DNA of 64,000 nucleotides from Massilibacteroides sp. (lineage in GTDB: Bacteria > Bacteroidota > Bacteroidia > Bacteroidales > Tannerellaceae), in NCBI GenBank assembly GCA_028708075.1, contig JAQVZS010000001.1:143319-207318 (forward strand), given 5' to 3'. Positions 32,636 through 42,809 of this stretch are shown here, piece after piece. A model generated the notes under the pieces. The model did not search any database. It was not told where the DNA came from and saw only the letters and a program-made list of their open reading frames with translations. Position 1 is the stretch's first letter. Each line of letters begins with the position of its first letter. Both the position numbers and the translations under genes were made by a program.

Positions 32636-35600
32636 CTACTGTTTTTTTTCTGAAGAAGGCACAGAATCTGGTTGTAACGTAGTCGGCAAAAGCAATAGTC
32701 TTTTCCGGCGCCGGAATATCTCGGAAAAATGGGTGAAGTCTTTCCGGTACATAATTCCTAATCCTTGTGTTGTGAGTGACTGGCGTTGGTAACGATACAT
32801 ATCGTTGGCATGATTATAAGCTTTGAGCCGGATTTCTCCAGTTTTCGTTAGTTTGTATTCCAAATCGAATTCGCCGATAAATGTGCTTTCTTGATTTTGA
32901 TAGGGGTTATTCCGGACACCGAAATTACCGTTAAATAAAAGTCGGTTATCCAATAGTTGGCTGGATAACAACATTTCGAATTCCGTATCGGATACGCCAT
33001 CTTGACTGGTGCGGATATTTGTTCCGATTTGAATTTTGTCTGTGATGCTGTTTAATATTCCAGAAAGTTGCGAGGAGAGAGCAGACGATGCAACGGCATT
33101 TAATTCATTTGAGTTTTGCCCCATGTATGAGGGGGTATAAAATTTGTTCAACACCAACAAATAAATGATTTGTAGCGTCATCATCTCGTCTGTATCGACC
33201 AATCCTTTTACGAGTCGTTCTAATTCCGTGTTGGAACCGGGTAATTCGAGATCGAACTTAACCATAGGGTTTCGCAGTTGGCCGTTGATTTGAAGGATAC
33301 AATTAACCGGAATGTTGGAACGTCCGCTTTGTTCGACTAGACTCTGGTCTAAATCTCCGATGTTGGCTGTCAGATTATAGATTGCGTTAATATCCATTGT
33401 TGCATCGAACGGATCGCCTCTAAATTCCACCGTACTTCCTTCACCGATTTTAAACCCTTTATGAATGAGTTGCTGCATACTGAAATTGTAACTTCCGCTG
33501 TTGATATTTATCCCTCCGTACATGCGTAAATCCGATTTTGTGCCGTATTCAATTTGCATACTACCACTGCCGGTTGCTTTTAGTTTGTCGCCCGCCGTCG
33601 GATCCATAATTAGTTCGATATTTGCATCCGGAGTTATATCCAATAACATGTTCATCCGAATCTCAGCGCCGTCATCATTTTTGTTTGTTTTAACTAAGAG
33701 AGTTGAATCGGGAATTGTTGTGTTTTGTTCCGCTTTTTTTCTTTTGTCGATAAATGTGATGAAATCATATTCAGAAGCTTTCGAGCCGCTCATAAAGTTA
33801 AATGACACGGTGGTTTTTGGAGCGCTTTGCATGTTGATGTCAAAATTAATCAACTTTTCATTTCCGGTTATTTGGGTTGATCCGCTTCCATAGACGGAGC
33901 CGAAGATCATGGGATTCTGTTTTTCCGGCACATCATAGACCAGCATATTGTCGGCTTGAACATCTACATAGAATTTGAAGTTCCTGAAATGCGAATGGTT
34001 TACGTTCAGGGTTACTTGTCCTTTGTTTCCGTTTTTATCCTGAATCGTCAGTCTTTTGGTGCTTATTTTGTCTTCGGTCAAAAACAGCGAGTCAGTAAAC
34101 GTATATTGCGTATTTAAATAATCGATGCCGATAATGCCGTCTTTCACAAATGCATTTCCTTCGACCGTCAGGTTTTTAAACGAACCGTGCAAGTGAATCA
34201 GTCCGAACCCATGACCGCCTATTTCAGACGTTATATTGTCCATATATGGTTTCAGAAAGGCCAGGTTGATATCATTCGCGTCAAAGTAAATCGACAAACC
34301 GGATTTTTCACCTACCGGATAGATATAGCCGTTCACATCCGTCCAGGTACTATCGTTTTTGTATATCGTGCCGAGCATAAGAATTCCCTTTTGGGTATCA
34401 TCCCATTCACTGAATAAATTAAGTTGTCCGAATTCTACCTGGTTAAACGAAAAATTCTTTATTTCCAAGTCGGTGTTTAGCATACGACTGTTATAAATAT
34501 CCTGTATGTTGACAGTCCCAGTAGCTTTACCTCCGAATTTGAGCGCTTTGATATTAACGGTGTTGAAAATATAGCTGAGTTCAATATCCTTTAAATCCAG
34601 GAGTAGAATATCTGCCGGATCTTTGGATATCGTTCCGTCGATCAGTAAATGCTCATTTCCATGAGAAGCGTAAAAATTGTCTATACTGATTCGTTGATTC
34701 TGTATACTGACCACACTGGGTGAAAGAGTCCACGTCGAGTCCTTGATCGTTAGATAATTTGGCGTTATGGATGTTTCAATACGGGTCGATGGACGATCGT
34801 GCAAATCGGTTTCTTCAATAAAAATAGTGGAAGTACGAAGACTTGCATTAAATGTATTTTGCATGTTGTTTGCCCAAGTGAATAACGTATTGATTTTATC
34901 ATTATTTGCATCTGCCTGCAAATCCATATAATTCCGAATTCCTTTTTTATTAAAATTAATAAGTTTCAAACTCATGTCTATTTCGCCGGATTGGTTGTCG
35001 CAAGTCAGATAACCCGATTCGAACATCGAATTTTTGATGTTGAACTTCGGCAAATAAGCTTCTACCCGAAACTTATCGTAAATAGTATTATAAAAGCCGG
35101 TTATTCGTGCCTGATTAATGATCGAGAAAGGCAGTTTAAGCGTATTGGACAGTTCTTCTGTGTTTTCTACGGTTAACAACAATGAAAAACTATTTTCTTC
35201 AGTCTTTCGTTTTTCCTGTTTGATGTCTTTAAACAAAGAAGGTATATGTTTTTGTATTGTATAAAAAAGGCTTGGGACAATAGTTTTGAAAGAATAGGCA
35301 CCGTTGACTTCCCCGTTTACGAGGTCTGATTGGACAAGCAGCTTTCTGTCGGAGTCATGACCGGAAGCAACGATCAGAAGTTTATCCATCTTAAATTGAG
35401 CCGGTGTTGTGATAAAGGCGAGACTGTCTAATTGAATTTTACCTTCGATATTATCAATCGTATTTCCGGAAAAGTCCGCATTTAAAGTGAAAGAGATTTC
35501 CGGCGATTCATATTTATCCGTTAGATGTAAATTATCCGGACGAAAATGATCGACTTGCGCCGTGAAATTAAACAAGGAGTTTTTCCCTTGATTTAAGAAC

Positions 35601-37135
35601 AAACCTTCGACCAACAACGATCCATTCGGATCGTCTATTTGTATTTTCCCATTAAACCCATGTTCCTGAAATTGGCCGGAAAAAAGCAGATTTTCGTAAT
35701 TGTAGCCTTTATAGTCAACATTCAATATTCTAGCTTCGATCTGTCCGAAAAACTTTTTATTGACCGGTCGTACAGCATCCAGATGAATATCGAAACGAAT
35801 ATTTCCAAACGGGTTACCATCTTCAAACAGATGGTTGATCTTCAAATTGGAAGTGCTGACATGTCCTTTAACAAACGTTCCGATTTGTCTGGCTTTATCA
35901 TGTCCGAAGTTCAGATCGGTTTCTATTGTGCCGATAGCGGATGTCAATTTCCCGTATGCAACCAGATTGTCTAAAAACCCGGATATTTCTCCGGTAAAAT
36001 GAAGGGTTCCCAGTTTTTGTAAATAAGCTGGTAATTCTACAGGTTTTTCGCTGAAATTATTTATCAACCCTTTGATTCCCTCATTCGTGATTCTCATCTG
36101 GTTAAGTTGACCAAATAAATAGGTGTTTTCTGGCTGGGTAATGCCTTTCAGTTCCATTTTTCCCAAAATCTGAAGTTTGTTACTGTAATCGAGCGAAAGC
36201 TGTTTAAGATTAATGTCGTTGATGAATCCCGACGCTTCGGCTGAAAGTCTGACAGTTTCCTTGAAATTCGAGAACACCGGGATAAAAGCTTTCAAATCAT
36301 TCAGTCGGATTTCGGAAGGCGAAATGAGTAAATTGACCCGAGCATTGTTTACCAGTTCTTCAGTGTTGTTTATGTCTTTTAATGCGATCTGTGCTTCTGG
36401 TATTTTAAAATCCGTTCCCGGTAATTTGAGTTGCAGATCATTAATTAAGGCACTATCTCGGTTTGCCCGGATTATTAGAGAAAGTTTATTGATCGAAAGT
36501 CCGGAGACTTCTTCAAAGCTTATTTTTTTAATTTGAGCATTTAGACTGTCATTCGTTAATTTTTTGACCGAAAGGCTTGCGCTCAGATTCTTTATCTCAA
36601 GATGTTTCGCGTTGAATTTACCGGGCGTTTGTTTTTCCGACAGGATATCGTACGAAAGATGTCCGCGCCTCATCATGATGGAATGGAGTTGCAGATCTAT
36701 TCGACTCTCTTTGTTTAACGTATCTTTTGAGGAAAAGGCCCGTATAAGAAACTGCATATTCAATTCGTCGGAAGGTTTGTTTTTCTGTAAGTTTAATGAA
36801 AAGCCAAAGAGGCGAATGGTATTGAATACAATTTTTTTCTTTAATAAGGGGAAAAATTCAAATCCCGCCGAAATGTGCGATGCTTCCAATAAAACTGTAC
36901 CATTTGGATCTTCCAGATAAAGGTCTTCCAAAGCAATCCGATTGAGCCATTCAATGTCAATATGCCCTATCTTTACGGGAACATTCAGATATTCGGATAA
37001 TTCAGAGGCGACCGTTTCGGTTACTTTATTCTGTATGTAGGGAATATTAAGCAGAATAGCCGGAATCGCATAAAATGTCCAAAGTAAAATAAAAAGACTA
37101 ACAATTATGTATTTTAAGACTCTGATAGCGCACAC
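32636..37135 (-). CDS. Translocation/assembly module TamB-like protein
   Basis: 1499 aa with an N-terminal TM, AsmA-like start and long beta-rich region. C-terminus has the TamB pattern (YGTKSDLRMYGGININSGSYNFSMQQLIHKGFKI; FDLELPGSNTELERLVKGLVDTDEMMTLQIIYLLVLNKFYTP). Confidence 0.9.
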   Translation of the reverse strand: MCAIRVLKYIIVSLFILLWTFYAIPAILLNIPYIQNKVTETVASELSEYLNVPVKIGHIDIEWLNRIALEDLYLEDPNGTVLLEASHISAGFEFFPLLKKKIVFNTIRLFGFSLNLQKNKPSDELNMQFLIRAFSSKDTLNKESRIDLQLHSIMMRRGHLSYDILSEKQTPGKFNAKHLEIKNLSASLSVKKLTNDSLNAQIKKISFEEVSGLSINKLSLIIRANRDSALINDLQLKLPGTDFKIPEAQIALKDINNTEELVNNARVNLLISPSEIRLNDLKAFIPVFSNFKETVRLSAEASGFINDINLKQLSLDYSNKLQILGKMELKGITQPENTYLFGQLNQMRITNEGIKGLINNFSEKPVELPAYLQKLGTLHFTGEISGFLDNLVAYGKLTSAIGTIETDLNFGHDKARQIGTFVKGHVSTSNLKINHLFEDGNPFGNIRFDIHLDAVRPVNKKFFGQIEARILNVDYKGYNYENLLFSGQFQEHGFNGKIQIDDPNGSLLVEGLFLNQGKNSLFNFTAQVDHFRPDNLHLTDKYESPEISFTLNADFSGNTIDNIEGKIQLDSLAFITTPAQFKMDKLLIVASGHDSDRKLLVQSDLVNGEVNGAYSFKTIVPSLFYTIQKHIPSLFKDIKQEKRKTEENSFSLLLTVENTEELSNTLKLPFSIINQARITGFYNTIYDKFRVEAYLPKFNIKNSMFESGYLTCDNQSGEIDMSLKLINFNKKGIRNYMDLQADANNDKINTLFTWANNMQNTFNASLRTSTIFIEETDLHDRPSTRIETSITPNYLTIKDSTWTLSPSVVSIQNQRISIDNFYASHGNEHLLIDGTISKDPADILLLDLKDIELSYIFNTVNIKALKFGGKATGTVNIQDIYNSRMLNTDLEIKNFSFNQVEFGQLNLFSEWDDTQKGILMLGTIYKNDSTWTDVNGYIYPVGEKSGLSIYFDANDINLAFLKPYMDNITSEIGGHGFGLIHLHGSFKNLTVEGNAFVKDGIIGIDYLNTQYTFTDSLFLTEDKISTKRLTIQDKNGNKGQVTLNVNHSHFRNFKFYVDVQADNMLVYDVPEKQNPMIFGSVYGSGSTQITGNEKLINFDINMQSAPKTTVSFNFMSGSKASEYDFITFIDKRKKAEQNTTIPDSTLLVKTNKNDDGAEIRMNMLLDITPDANIELIMDPTAGDKLKATGSGSMQIEYGTKSDLRMYGGININSGSYNFSMQQLIHKGFKIGEGSTVEFRGDPFDATMDINAIYNLTANIGDLDQSLVEQSGRSNIPVNCILQINGQLRNPMVKFDLELPGSNTELERLVKGLVDTDEMMTLQIIYLLVLNKFYTPSYMGQNSNELNAVASSALSSQLSGILNSITDKIQIGTNIRTSQDGVSDTEFEMLLSSQLLDNRLLFNGNFGVRNNPYQNQESTFIGEFDLEYKLTKTGEIRLKAYNHANDMYRYQRQSLTTQGLGIMYRKDFTHFSEIFRRRKRLLLLPTTLQPDSVPSSEKKQ

Positions 37136-37203: not shown

Positions 37204-38223
37204 ATGGGTATTATGATATTAGGGATTGAATCTTCGTGTGACGATACTTCAGCCGCAGTTATTCGGGAAGGTGTGTTATTGTCTAATGTAATTGCCAGTC
37301 AGTCTGTTCATGAAGCTTATGGAGGCGTGGTGCCCGAATTGGCTTCCCGGGCGCATCAACAGAATATCATTCCGGTGGTAAGCGAAGCGATCAAACGAGC
37401 TGGAATTGATAAATCCGAATTGGATGCGATAGCCTTTACCCGTGGTCCCGGTTTGATGGGATCTTTATTAGTTGGAACTTCGTTTGCAAAAGGATTATCA
37501 ATGTCGTTAAGCATTCCGATGATCGAAGTAAACCATTTGCAGGCTCATGTGTTGGCGCATTTTATTAAGGATGCGCCGGACGATAATCATCAGCCGGCCT
37601 ATCCTTTTCTATGTTTGCTGGTATCTGGTGGAAATTCACAAATCATTAAAGTTAAGGCTTATAATGATATGGAAGTGATCGGACAGACGATCGATGACGC
37701 CGCGGGTGAAGCGTTCGATAAATGTGCCAAAGTGATGGGATTAGGATACCCGGGAGGTCCAATTGTCAATCGTCTCGCAAACGAAGGAAATCCGAATACG
37801 TTTGTATTCAGCAAACCTCATATTTCTGACTATAACTATAGTTTTAGCGGATTAAAAACCTCTTTTCTGTATACGTTGCGGGATAGGTTAGCGGTTGATC
37901 CGGATTTTATTGAAAAGAATAAAGCCGATCTTTGTGCGTCATTACAAGAAACGGTTATTGATATTCTCATGACAAAACTACGTAAAGCTGCGAAAGATCT
38001 AAATATAAACGAAGTTGCCGTTGCCGGAGGGGTTTCTGCCAATACTGGATTGCGGGATGCGTTTCATGATCATGCCAGACGTTACGGATGGAAAATTCAT
38101 ATTCCCAAATTTGCTTATACTACCGACAACGCGGCAATGGTTGCGATCACCGGCTACTATAAATATATGGATAAGGACTTTTGCTCTATGGAAGCCACGC
38201 CTTTTTCCCGTGTCGTATTATAA
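37204..38223 (+). CDS. tsaD: tRNA N6-adenosine threonylcarbamoyltransferase
   Basis: ILGIESSCDDTSAAVI, GGVVPELASRAHQQNI, LCLLVSGGNSQII, DDAAGEAFDKCAKVMGLGYPGGP. Confidence 0.98.
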   Translation: MGIMILGIESSCDDTSAAVIREGVLLSNVIASQSVHEAYGGVVPELASRAHQQNIIPVVSEAIKRAGIDKSELDAIAFTRGPGLMGSLLVGTSFAKGLSMSLSIPMIEVNHLQAHVLAHFIKDAPDDNHQPAYPFLCLLVSGGNSQIIKVKAYNDMEVIGQTIDDAAGEAFDKCAKVMGLGYPGGPIVNRLANEGNPNTFVFSKPHISDYNYSFSGLKTSFLYTLRDRLAVDPDFIEKNKADLCASLQETVIDILMTKLRKAAKDLNINEVAVAGGVSANTGLRDAFHDHARRYGWKIHIPKFAYTTDNAAMVAITGYYKYMDKDFCSMEATPFSRVVL

Positions 38224-38257: not shown

Positions 38258-38611
38258 TTATTTGATCAGCTTATTTGTTTTGGTATCCGGGAAAATAATG
38301 GCTGGTTTAAAGTTTTTGGCCTCTTCGAAATCCATTATTGCATAAGCCATGATAATGATAATATCCCCGGGTTGCACTTTTCGGGCAGCGGCACCGTTTA
38401 AGCAGATAATGCCCGAGCCTCGTTCGCCTTTGATTACATACGTGTCGAAGCGTTCGCCATTGTTGTTATTTACAATCGAAACTTTCTCGTTGGCGATAAT
38501 ATTGGCTGCCTCCATCAACTCTTCATCAATGGTGATGCTGCCGATGTAATTGAGGTTTGCTTCTGTAACGGTTATCCGGTGTATTTTGGATTTTAATATT
38601 TCTATAAACAT
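38258..38611 (-). CDS. panD: Aspartate 1-decarboxylase
   Basis: [35 protein letters not shown]; contains the YIGS(I) self-cleavage site and [23 protein letters not shown]. Confidence 0.97.
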
Positions 38612-38630: not shown

Positions 38631-39479
38631 TTAAGATAATTTATAATGAATATTGTCGATTAGCCTGACCTTTCCACAATAAACCGTAATGCAGCCGACC
38701 GGATCGTTCGACCCTTTCCAATCGCTGACCGCTTCAAGTGTGGCGCTGTCTACAATTTCGTAATATTCTATTTCCATTTCAGATTCTTTGTTTATCGTAT
38801 CGATAACGAAATCGATTGTTTCCTCTACACTGTGTTTTTGTGCAAAGGTAGTGCTTTCTTGCAAAACATGGGCAATTAATGGCGCTTTTTGACGTAATTC
38901 CGGCGTCAAGCGGGTGTTTCTACTGCTCAAAGCCAATCCGTCTTTTTCTCTTACGATCGGACAGGCAACGATTTTTACTTTCATGTTCAATAATTTAACC
39001 ATTGAACGGATGACGGCAATTTGTTGAAAATCCTTTTCTCCGAAATAAGCTTTGCTTGGTTGAACAATATCGAATAATTTACTAACGATCTGTCCGACAC
39101 CATTAAAATGTCCCGGTCGGTATTTTCCCTCCATCACTTCCGCGACGCGTCCAAAATTAAAAATGCGGGTATCTGGCTCAGGATACATCTCTTTTTCGCC
39201 TGGTGCGAATACGTATGTACAGCCAGCTGCTTCCAGCAAAGCGTAATCTTGTTCCGGCGTACGTGGGTAAGTGGACAGATCGTTTTTGTCATTGAATTGT
39301 GTCGGGTTGACAAAAATACTGACTACACAAACATCGTTTTCCCGCACACATTGGCGCACTAAACTGATATGTCCGGCGTGGAGAGCACCCATTGTCGGAA
39401 CCAACCCAATTTGTTTTTTACTCTCTCTTTCTTTGTTCAGATATAGTTTTAAATCTTTGATATTACTTGCTATTTTCAT
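38631..39479 (-). CDS. panC: Pantothenate synthetase
   Basis: [53 protein letters not shown]. Start could be 39488 or 39479. Confidence 0.97.
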
Positions 39480-39541
39480 GAGGTTCATGCTTTAGACGCT
39501 GCAAAGCAAGTAAATAATTGCCGTAAATGAAAGAATTTTAT

Positions 39542-39549
39542 TATCTTTG
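39542..39549 (+). promoter_or_regulatory. Bacteroidetes -7 box (TATCTTTG) upstream of the GT5-like gene
   Basis: TAnnTTTG match 29 nt upstream of ATG. Confidence 0.6.
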
Positions 39550-39578: not shown

Positions 39579-40403
39579 ATGGATGCAAAGAAAATCTTGT
39601 TTATAGCTCAAGAGATCACCCCTTACTTGCCTGAATCTGAAATCGCGACAATTTGCAGGAATTTGCCGCAAGGCATACAGGAACGCGGCCGGGAGATAAG
39701 GACTTTTATGCCGAAGTTTGGAAATATAAATGAACGTAGAAACCAATTGCATGAGGTGATTCGCTTGTCGGGTATGAACCTGATCATTGATGACACAGAT
39801 CATCCGCTGATCATTAAAGTTGCGTCTATCCAATCCGCTCGAATGCAGGTTTATTTTATTGATAACGAAGATTTCTTTCAACGTAAAGGAACTACAGTCG
39901 ATGAGGAAGGAAATGAATACGAAGATAACGACGACCGTTCCATTTTTTATGTCCGTGGAGTATTAGAAACGATCAAAAAACTGCGTTGGATTCCTGATGT
40001 GATTCATTGTCATGGTTGGATATCTGCATTAACAGCTTTGTATGTGAAGCGGATGTATGTAGATGATCCTTGCCTGAAAAGTGCAAAAATTGTTTATTCT
40101 GTTTATAAAGATGATTTCGAAAAACCCTTTGCGGACGATTTTGTATCCAAGTTGAAGATGGACGGAGCGAAAGAAAATGATGTGAAGGTTTTGAAAAATG
40201 GCGCGGATTTCGTCGCTTTATCGAAATTAGCGATTGATTTTAGCGACGGGGTTATTCAGGGAAGTAAATGTATTAACCCTGAAATTGAATCATATATCGC
40301 GTCGAAAACAGATATTCCGTTTCTCTCATATAAGTCTGAAGAGGCTTATATGGATGAGTTTGATAAATTCTATGATTTAGTAATGGATACTAAAAAGAAA
40401 TAA
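39579..40403 (+). CDS. Half-length glycogen/starch synthase-like protein (GT5 N-terminal domain only)
   Basis: AKKILFIAQEITPYLPE, REIRTFMPKFGNINERR, PDVIHCHGWISALTALYVKRMY resemble the GT5 catalytic N-domain. Ends at 274 aa without the C-terminal GT half. Confidence 0.8.
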   Translation: MDAKKILFIAQEITPYLPESEIATICRNLPQGIQERGREIRTFMPKFGNINERRNQLHEVIRLSGMNLIIDDTDHPLIIKVASIQSARMQVYFIDNEDFFQRKGTTVDEEGNEYEDNDDRSIFYVRGVLETIKKLRWIPDVIHCHGWISALTALYVKRMYVDDPCLKSAKIVYSVYKDDFEKPFADDFVSKLKMDGAKENDVKVLKNGADFVALSKLAIDFSDGVIQGSKCINPEIESYIASKTDIPFLSYKSEEAYMDEFDKFYDLVMDTKKK

Positions 40404-40406
40404 ATA

Positions 40407-41744
40407 ATGAAACTCCGATCTTCAATAGTGGGCTTGATGCTGAGTGCCGGCTTTTTGTCTGGCTGTAATGATGATTTAAATTATGTGGGGGGAAGTATCC
40501 AGCCTGACGAAGATAGAATTGATGTCATGGTCGATTCTTTTATGATGGCGTCTTCGACCGTAAAGATTGATTCTATATATGCAAAAACTTCTTCCGGTTA
40601 TTTGGGGCAGTTTTTTGATCCGCAGTATGGTGATTATAAAGCGGACTATATTTGTCAGTTTTATTGTAAGGAGGGATATACATTTGCGCATGAACCACTG
40701 AACGGAAAGATTGATTCGGTGGTGTTTGTTATGTTATACAATTCTTATATTGGGGATTCTCTTTCACCGATGAAGGCGGAAATTTTCCCTGTGGTTAAGT
40801 CGCTCGATCGTAATTATTATACAAATATCAATCCGGAAGATTATTGCAATATGCAAACGTCTTTGGGAGGTCAGGCGTATACTGTTTACAATGCGGTCAA
40901 AGCAACGAAAAATGATACGATAAAAATCCGGTTGAAAGATGAATTGGGACAACAAATATATGATGAAACAATAAATAATCCATCCTCGTTCGCGAATCAG
41001 GAAGCCTTCAATCGCTTTTTCCCCGGACTTTATGTGACGAACACGTATGGAATGGGAGTTACTTTGCGGGTAAACGCTTCGGGGATTATGATTCATTACC
41101 GCTACGAAGCGACAACTACGGATTCAAAAGGAAACGATTCTACGTATGTAGCAAATACCAACGAATTGTTTATTGTGACCAACGAAGTAATCCAGCTAAA
41201 CCGGATGAAGAGTTACGGATTGGATGAACTTTTGGCACCCAACAACAACTATACGTATTTAAAAACACCTGCGGGGGTGTATACGCGATTGGTTATTCCG
41301 GCAAAGAAAATATTTGAACGTGTTGGTGACCGGATTATCAATGATTTGCCGGTGGCAATCAAACCTCTTCCTTCATCGGACTGGGAATATGCTTCGTCTC
41401 CTTCTTCTTATTTATTGCTATTGCCGGAAGATTCGTTGAAAACATTCTTTGAGAAAAATAAAATAGATGATAATATTACTTCGTTTAAAACAAAGTATTC
41501 ATATTCTTCCACTGAACGTATTTATATGTATAATTTTGGAAATATCGCAAGATTGCTAAAAAAGCATAAAGAGAATGCGCCGGACGAAGATTTAAGAGTG
41601 TTGCTTATTCCGATAGAAACGGATGCCGCTACAAACACTTATTCATATTACATCCGGAATTTCTTAAGACCTTCTGGATTGACGTTAAGAAAGGATTCGG
41701 AGGTTATGTCCATTAAAGTTACTACAAGCAAATATGAAAAATAG
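40407..41744 (+). CDS. DUF4270-like lipoprotein
   Basis: Lipobox (AGFLSGC), DRIDVMVDSFMMASSTVKIDSIYAKTSSGYLGQFFDPQYGDYKADYICQFYC. 3 nt after the GT5-like stop codon. Confidence 0.78.
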   Translation: MKLRSSIVGLMLSAGFLSGCNDDLNYVGGSIQPDEDRIDVMVDSFMMASSTVKIDSIYAKTSSGYLGQFFDPQYGDYKADYICQFYCKEGYTFAHEPLNGKIDSVVFVMLYNSYIGDSLSPMKAEIFPVVKSLDRNYYTNINPEDYCNMQTSLGGQAYTVYNAVKATKNDTIKIRLKDELGQQIYDETINNPSSFANQEAFNRFFPGLYVTNTYGMGVTLRVNASGIMIHYRYEATTTDSKGNDSTYVANTNELFIVTNEVIQLNRMKSYGLDELLAPNNNYTYLKTPAGVYTRLVIPAKKIFERVGDRIINDLPVAIKPLPSSDWEYASSPSSYLLLLPEDSLKTFFEKNKIDDNITSFKTKYSYSSTERIYMYNFGNIARLLKKHKENAPDEDLRVLLIPIETDAATNTYSYYIRNFLRPSGLTLRKDSEVMSIKVTTSKYEK

Positions 41745-41950: not shown

Positions 41951-41958
41951 TACCTTTG
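41951..41958 (+). promoter_or_regulatory. Bacteroidetes -7 box (TACCTTTG) for panB
   Basis: TAnnTTTG match 29 nt upstream of ATG. Confidence 0.6.
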
Positions 41959-41987: not shown

Positions 41988-42809
41988 ATGTCAGTAGCAA
42001 AAATGGATGAGAACAGAAAAGTAACCACGCATCGTCTGTTTGAGATGAAGCAAAGGGGTGAAAAGATTTCCATGTTGACAGCCTACGATTATTCGATGGC
42101 TGCTATTATTGATCAAGCAGGAATGGATGTGATTCTTGTCGGCGATTCAGCTTCCAATGTGATGGCGGGAAATGTAACAACTCTTCCGATCACTTTGGAC
42201 CAGATGATTTATCACGGAAAATCGGTGATGAAAGCAGTCAAGCGATCATTAGTAGTGGTAGATCTCCCATTTGGTACGTATCAGGGAAATTCTAAGGAAG
42301 CCCTTTCTTCCGCTATCCGTGTGATGAAGGAAACGCATGCCGATTGTATTAAACTGGAAGGAGGAGCGGAAGTGAAAGAATCGATCGAACGTATTCTTTG
42401 TGCTGGAATTCCAATTATGGGACATTTGGGCTTAACTCCTCAATCGATAAATAAATTCGGGACTTATACGGTGCGTGCCCGAGAAGAAGCGGAAGCCGAA
42501 AAATTGGTAAGAGATGCGCATTTGCTGGAGGAAATTGGCTGTTTCGCCATTGTGCTCGAAAAAATTCCTGCCGTATTAGCTACCCGTGTAGCAAGAGAAC
42601 TGACCATTCCTGTTATCGGAATTGGCGCAGGAGGGGGCGTGGACGGTCAGGTGTTAGTGATGCACGATATGTTGGGAATTAATAAAGAGTTTTCTCCGCG
42701 TTTCCTGCGCCGTTATGCTAACCTGAACGAAATGATCACGAAAGCCGTTCAGTCGTATATCGCGGATGTGAAAAGTCGGGATTTCCCGAATGAAAAGGAA
42801 CAATATTGA
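41988..42809 (+). CDS. panB: 3-methyl-2-oxobutanoate hydroxymethyltransferase
   Basis: [70 protein letters not shown]. Confidence 0.98.

Follow-up and report, generated by a model that had tools for sequence, protein, structure and literature searches.

BamH, described in 2025, is a subunit of the BAM complex of Bacteroidota that sits at the surface and forms part of an extracellular canopy over BamA. In F. johnsoniae, BamH (Fjoh_0823) behaves as essential and is deletable with the bamA Q801K suppressor (PMC12611786), whereas in B. thetaiotaomicron (Bt4306) it is important, not essential (PMC12578637). The surface lipoproteins BamH-K carry two acidic residues within six after the cysteine (PMC12578637). 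The neighbouring tag in B. thetaiotaomicron, BT_4307, is annotated as a 'putative glycogen synthase' (PMC8941943) and has been cited as a 'potential glycogen synthase' supporting glycogen storage in this organism (PMC10797578). A photo-crosslinking vitamin B12 probe also captured BT_4307, among 16 proteins recovered in both of two screens, at modest enrichment (log2 2.6 and 1.05; PMC8941943). The 100 bp upstream of fjoh_0824 served as one of two native promoters in the depletion constructs for essential BAM subunits (Liu et al.). The available text of the two BAM papers reports no GT5-like protein in the purified complexes, and neither glycogen synthase nor starch synthase turned up when it was searched by term. 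A review in Gut Microbes describes the Bacteroidetes as being without GlgC (PMC10395257), and a 2024 review notes a conserved GlgA fragment in one sentence. In plants, STARCH SYNTHASE 5 (SS5), a nonenzymatic homolog of SS4 (PMC11809589, PMC8626487), acts in starch granule initiation.

The window analysed here is the whole 64,000-nt stretch of DNA from Massilibacteroides sp. (GCA_028708075.1, contig JAQVZS010000001.1, positions 143,319 to 207,318). A gene at 39579..40403 (+) encodes a 274-aa protein that holds the N-terminal domain of GlgA only and is called half-GT5 below. Its TAA stop is followed by 3 nt and then by the ATG of a gene at 40407..41744 (+) for a 445-aa DUF4270 lipoprotein. On the other side, panC (38631..39488, -) is divergent from the half-GT5 gene, a pair conserved in 36/41 Bacteroidia loci, and panD (38258..38611, -) is found near both genes in many Bacteroidia loci. 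The next gene downstream of the lipoprotein gene is panB (41988..42809, +; NCBIfam panB, 322 bits), which has its own TAnnTTTG box at 41951. The 3-nt spacing, the lipobox, the DUF4270 assignment and the vicinity of panC and panD given in a preliminary description made from the letters alone were all borne out by the coordinates and Pfam. A candidate Bacteroidota-type promoter at 39518..39549 (+), with TTG at 39518-39520, 21 nt and then TATCTTTG at 39542-39549, ends 29 nt before the half-GT5 start and would drive both half-GT5 and the lipoprotein gene; the chance expectation for TAnnTTTG is about 0.07 per 90 nt. A sigma-70 promoter and terminator scan gave matches no commoner than in shuffles and is uninformative for Bacteroidota. 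Just past panD lie a gene for a TsaD-like protein, named from its sequence (37204-38223, +), and a gene for a large TamB-like protein of 1499 aa with a weak NCBIfam TamB match (32636-37135, -). With the TamB-like gene near panD, outer-membrane biogenesis genes cluster at the locus.

The lipoprotein has the lipobox LSGC at Cys20 and matches PF14092 (265 bits, E 2e-78). Its residues 12-430 align with chain G of the P. gingivalis BAM structure 9hjm (E 3e-64); a second match was to chain G of 9his, the structure from B. thetaiotaomicron. The lipid-anchor cysteine and following residues (CNDDLNY, 40464..40484, +) include two acidic residues within six after the Cys, the pattern associated with surface export (PMC12578637). 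The score against the NCBIfam BamH_bt equivalog was 216.6 bits, below the cut-off of 670, which appears to be tuned to close B. thetaiotaomicron relatives. As no other DUF4270 gene occurs in the genome, the gene is not a second paralogue. On these matches the lipoprotein is assigned as BamH, which supersedes its earlier description as having an unknown function. By adjacency and annotation, BT_4307 and fjoh_0824 are inferred to be the half-GT5 gene of their genomes.

In a class-wide search, half-GT5 was present in 377/395 Bacteroidia genomes and in 337/339 of those of good quality, almost always as a single copy. A DUF4270 search placed the half-GT5 gene directly upstream in 30/30 Bacteroidia bamH loci, which excludes a chance pairing; counted from the other side, the next gene after half-GT5 was bamH in 38/41 Bacteroidia loci, often after a gap of 3-30 nt. 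The similar neighbourhood that the preliminary description mentioned for other Bacteroidetes is therefore real, and it extends across the GTDB phylum. Among 23 diverse half-GT5 sequences 53 columns were invariant. Values of dN/dS (NG86, 13 pairs of relatives, with dS partly saturated and half-GT5 values taken where dS was computable) were about 0.008-0.04 for half-GT5, with one pair at 0.07, and about 0.07-0.32 for bamH in the same pairs. Such ratios clearly point to very strong purifying selection on half-GT5 as a protein. The glgC gene was missing from a large part of the sampled Bacteroidia, including the window genome, and half-GT5 was present in every Bacteroidia genome covered by both searches; because half-GT5 is kept in many genomes without glgC, its presence is independent of that gene. 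GlgC did score above cut-off in part of the Bacteroidia sampled, in contrast to the statement of the Gut Microbes review.

The linkage with bamH is broken in a few genomes. Three of them, G002, G007 and G146, have a DUF4270 gene elsewhere and none adjacent to half-GT5. In G219 (0.49 Mb, 23% GC locally), an intact half-GT5 gene adjoins gyrB, and tblastn and HMM searches found no bamH, bamG, lpxA, lpxB, lpxC, lpxD, panB, panC or panD, and no glgC, glgA, glgP or tamB. This genome retains peptidoglycan genes and, after uppS, a short POTRA protein and OmpH: the 580-aa protein at L197:14716-16455 has one POTRA match, stands beside an OmpH-like protein and is probably a shrunken BamA. The second reduced genome, G440 (chromosome 1,114,206 bp, a size that fits 'Ca. 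Azobacteroides pseudotrichonymphae'), has a half-GT5 gene beside panC whose product is 50% identical to the window protein; BamA, panBCD, peptidoglycan genes, an lpxC match and a tamB match were present, and lpxA, lpxB, lpxD, bamH, bamG, glgC and glgA were not found. These absences were scored by tblastn and HMM searches of fast-evolving sequences, and as a positive control the HMMs used on the reduced genomes do find bamH in the window. A look for other reduced symbionts gave no further genomes in the family or order of G219. Because half-GT5 is kept without an adjacent or detectable bamH, its selected function is, at least in part, separate from BamH; what the two reduced genomes show is independence from BamG and BamH in those organisms rather than in every one. 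In both, half-GT5 also outlasts most lipid A genes and the ADP-glucose route to glycogen. A link to BamA, which remains in both reduced genomes (in degenerate form in G219), is possible.

These genomes also bear on the reading that comes nearest to the preliminary description, in which half-GT5 works with the lipoprotein. Half-GT5 would then be a dedicated cytoplasmic partner of BamH or of BAM, acting through translational coupling, as a precursor chaperone or as a regulator of BAM subunit levels, and the pair would be a functional unit. The close spacing and near-constant order of the two genes agree with such a role, as do a linkage as old as the operon with full-length GlgA (below) and the use of the 100-bp promoter region of the upstream gene in the depletion system of Liu et al. 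However, half-GT5 persists in the three Bacteroidia genomes where bamH is not adjacent and in the two reduced symbionts where bamH is undetected, BamH is a surface lipoprotein while half-GT5 shows no signal peptide, and the much slower evolution of half-GT5 relative to BamH is evidence against its co-evolving with BamH itself. We regard a dedicated partnership as unlikely, and the proposal that half-GT5 works with the lipoprotein loses ground accordingly.

Half-GT5 residues 5-238 are covered by PF08323, the GT5 N-terminal domain (E 4e-46, 158 bits, cut-off 22.7), and the Pfam search found no C-terminal glycosyltransferase domain in the 274 aa. The TIGR02095 score was 103 bits, below the cut-off of 328, and the nearest solved relatives are glycogen and starch synthases. 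The AlphaFold2 model (mean pLDDT 93.6, pTM 0.92) has a confident GlgA N-domain fold, with A. tumefaciens GlgA (1rzu) as the best Foldseek match (E 2e-14, TMq 0.66); 6gne and 2qzs also matched, and the best PDB matches are GlgA and starch synthases. No signal peptide was apparent, so half-GT5 is probably cytoplasmic. When the window protein was aligned to E. coli GlgA, the K15-T-G-G-L loop read P-E-S-E-I, D137 was replaced by Gly and H161 by Tyr. Across 54 half forms in the same alignment, the K15-T-G-G loop was retained in none (0/54), H161 in 4/54 and D137 in 8/54, and the acceptor-side glutamate E9 (E. coli numbering) was kept in 54/54; R300, K305 and E377 fall in the domain that the half forms lack. 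Judged from this alignment, half-GT5 is CATALYTICALLY dead. The features of a pseudoenzyme are present together, with catalytic residues lost, the fold kept, and the gene conserved and constrained. The reading of the protein as a GT5 N-terminal half with a replaced substrate-binding loop was thus confirmed, its active-site residues are not intact, and there is good support for the suggestion that it is non-catalytic or repurposed, since it has lost the donor loop, D137, H161 and the C-terminal half.

It is very unlikely that half-GT5 is still an enzyme, whether as a minimal glycosyltransferase on its own or as one half of a split enzyme. The confident fold prediction and the invariant E9 are in its favour, but the protein has none of the donor-loop glycines, R300, K305 or E377, and the window genome has a GT3 glycogen synthase (PF05693, 294 bits), no true GT5 glycogen synthase and no glgC above cut-off (best 77 bits, cut-off 425). 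A search of that genome for a separately encoded GT5 C-terminal half found none; the single weak match (E 1e-5), in a 424-aa GT4-type protein, was rejected as the other half of a split enzyme.

A phylum-wide search returned half forms from Bacteroidia and from several further lineages, while other lineages have full-length forms of about 490-540 aa. Many Ignavibacteria and other Bacteroidota-related loci have the order glgA>gmhB>bamH>bamG, intermediate lineages have half-GT5>bamH>bamG, and Bacteroidia have half-GT5>bamH. GmhB belongs to the heptose-bisphosphate phosphatase family; the BamG neighbour scores above the NCBIfam threshold for BamG, with a further match to PDB 'Bam G'. When the profile was built from Bacteroidia only, the E-values of the distant BamH genes ranged from 8e-7 to about 1 and two of the genes were lost, so that the identity of these distant genes rests on an iterated profile and on the adjacent BamG where present. 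Among non-Chlorobia full-length forms, KTGG was present in 13/14 (KTGS in the other) and D/E137, H161, R300, K305 and E377 in 14/14, and the active site was intact in 37/38 further bamH-linked full-length GlgAs. As a negative control, bamH was absent at the GlgA loci L151-L175 and L177-L184, which lie mostly outside the bamH-linked lineages and include some second copies within them. The 54 half forms grouped as a single clade (support 100/99) in an N-terminal-domain tree, a result that fits one truncation event. The ancestor of half-GT5 is shown to be a full-length ADP-glucose glycogen synthase, whose gene stood at the head of a glgA-gmhB-bamH-bamG cluster in ancestors of the phylum. A C-terminal Y-x-x-[LF]-Y helix resembling the last helix of GlgA is frequent in the half forms, with 24/54 tails above the 95% null; the best match is the early-branching L065, the tail of the window protein is not among the strong matches, and the helix is not visible in the Foldseek alignment columns. 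These statistics are modest and suggest that the half form arose by internal deletion rather than by a simple stop.

Two further observations were made in the full-length lineages. The 489-aa GlgAs at L076:3199-4665 and L077:3154-4620 (family f17, probably Chlorobia) are full-length and stand in the glgA-gmhB position; in them Arg replaces K15, SA replaces GG, and R300 and K305 are gone. No bamH was found nearby, f17 genomes have no GlgC above cut-off, and these proteins are possibly a second pseudo-GlgA. Chlorobiota have been reported to be without BamG and BamH, and the two loci fit that report. BamH-like proteins at L064 and L087, in lineages with full-length GlgA, match the DNRLRE domain NF033679 above cut-off, which may hint at where the BamH structure came from.

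A role of half-GT5 as a functional partner or regulator of pantothenate synthesis is likewise highly improbable. The divergent panC gene in most Bacteroidia loci and its retention in reduced G440 speak for such a role, but panC is not beside half-GT5 in the intermediate lineages L065-L092, and G219 keeps half-GT5 with no panB, panC or panD found. That half-GT5 is a relic leader kept only to allow bamH translation is barely credible, as the short intergenic distances are set against very low dN/dS, the many invariant residues and retention of the gene where bamH is absent or elsewhere.

We consider it likely that half-GT5 is a GlgA-derived cytoplasmic housekeeping pseudoenzyme that serves its own core function and shares expression with BamH as an inherited arrangement. 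A full-length glgA headed the ancestral glgA-gmhB-bamH-bamG operon and would have undergone a single truncation, and half-GT5 would be co-expressed with bamH because both come from this old operon. With no catalysis, the protein would work by binding a partner, namely a protein and possibly also a sugar. The best-conserved stretches are RLHEVIRLSGMN at 56-67, IKVAS at 79-83, QVYFIDN at 90-96 and an FKRK-like motif at 100-103, and S64 and G65 set the half forms apart from the full-length ones. These stretches are likely to make up the interaction face, which would be the conserved face of the N-domain (RLHEVIRLSG, KVAS, VYFIDN, FKRK). A role in the supply of cell-envelope precursors is a guess that we hold to be rather unlikely, made because the operon partners are envelope genes and because both reduced genomes keep peptidoglycan synthesis and BamA or a BamA-like protein. 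Somewhat more plausible, at a little under an even chance, is the broader picture of a cytoplasmic factor, near-universal and probably essential, that was taken from the glgA-gmhB-bamH-bamG operon into core envelope assembly, lost catalysis, and is still present in reduced symbionts where the genes for the BAM canopy, LPS and glycogen have gone.

A single-copy, class-wide gene under tighter constraint than bamH and kept in a half-megabase symbiont is still annotated as a glycogen synthase. If BT_4307 is half-GT5, as its position indicates, the inference of glycogen storage in B. thetaiotaomicron rests on a dead half enzyme. Binding of B12 was set aside as the function of half-GT5, the enrichment being modest, and is taken as evidence that the protein is made. 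PGN_1734, listed under transport in a P. gingivalis expression paper, was not accepted as the homologue. No BT_4307 knockout was found in the open-licence literature. The published bamH suppressor strain makes the half-GT5 question directly testable, and the ancestral operon sheds new light on the way in which the set of BAM genes in Bacteroidota came together.

Nothing found in the open-licence literature describes what the pair is, the ancestral operon, the loss of the active site, the single clade, the constraint or the uncoupling from BamH. Already known are the GlgA fragment, in one sentence, and BamH; the operon history, the active-site loss and the uncoupling appear to be new. The fragment of the 2024 review almost certainly belongs to the same gene family as half-GT5, but the accessible part of that review gives no locus, BamH link, analysis of active site or selection, or account of origin or function. 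Compared with known systems, the downstream product in the window matches BamH of P. gingivalis and B. thetaiotaomicron. Half-GT5 shares its N-terminal domain with GlgA (CAZy GT5, including the NCBIfam PRK14098-type) in both sequence and fold, and full-length members hold its operon position in related lineages, but it lacks the C-terminal domain, the KTGG loop and the catalytic residues. Its nearest functional analogue is SS5, which likewise stems from a GT5 starch synthase and is non-enzymatic. SS5 is also without the second GT domain. The two are assumed to be of independent origin, and half-GT5 differs from SS5 in that it persists in genomes without ADP-glucose glycogen genes.
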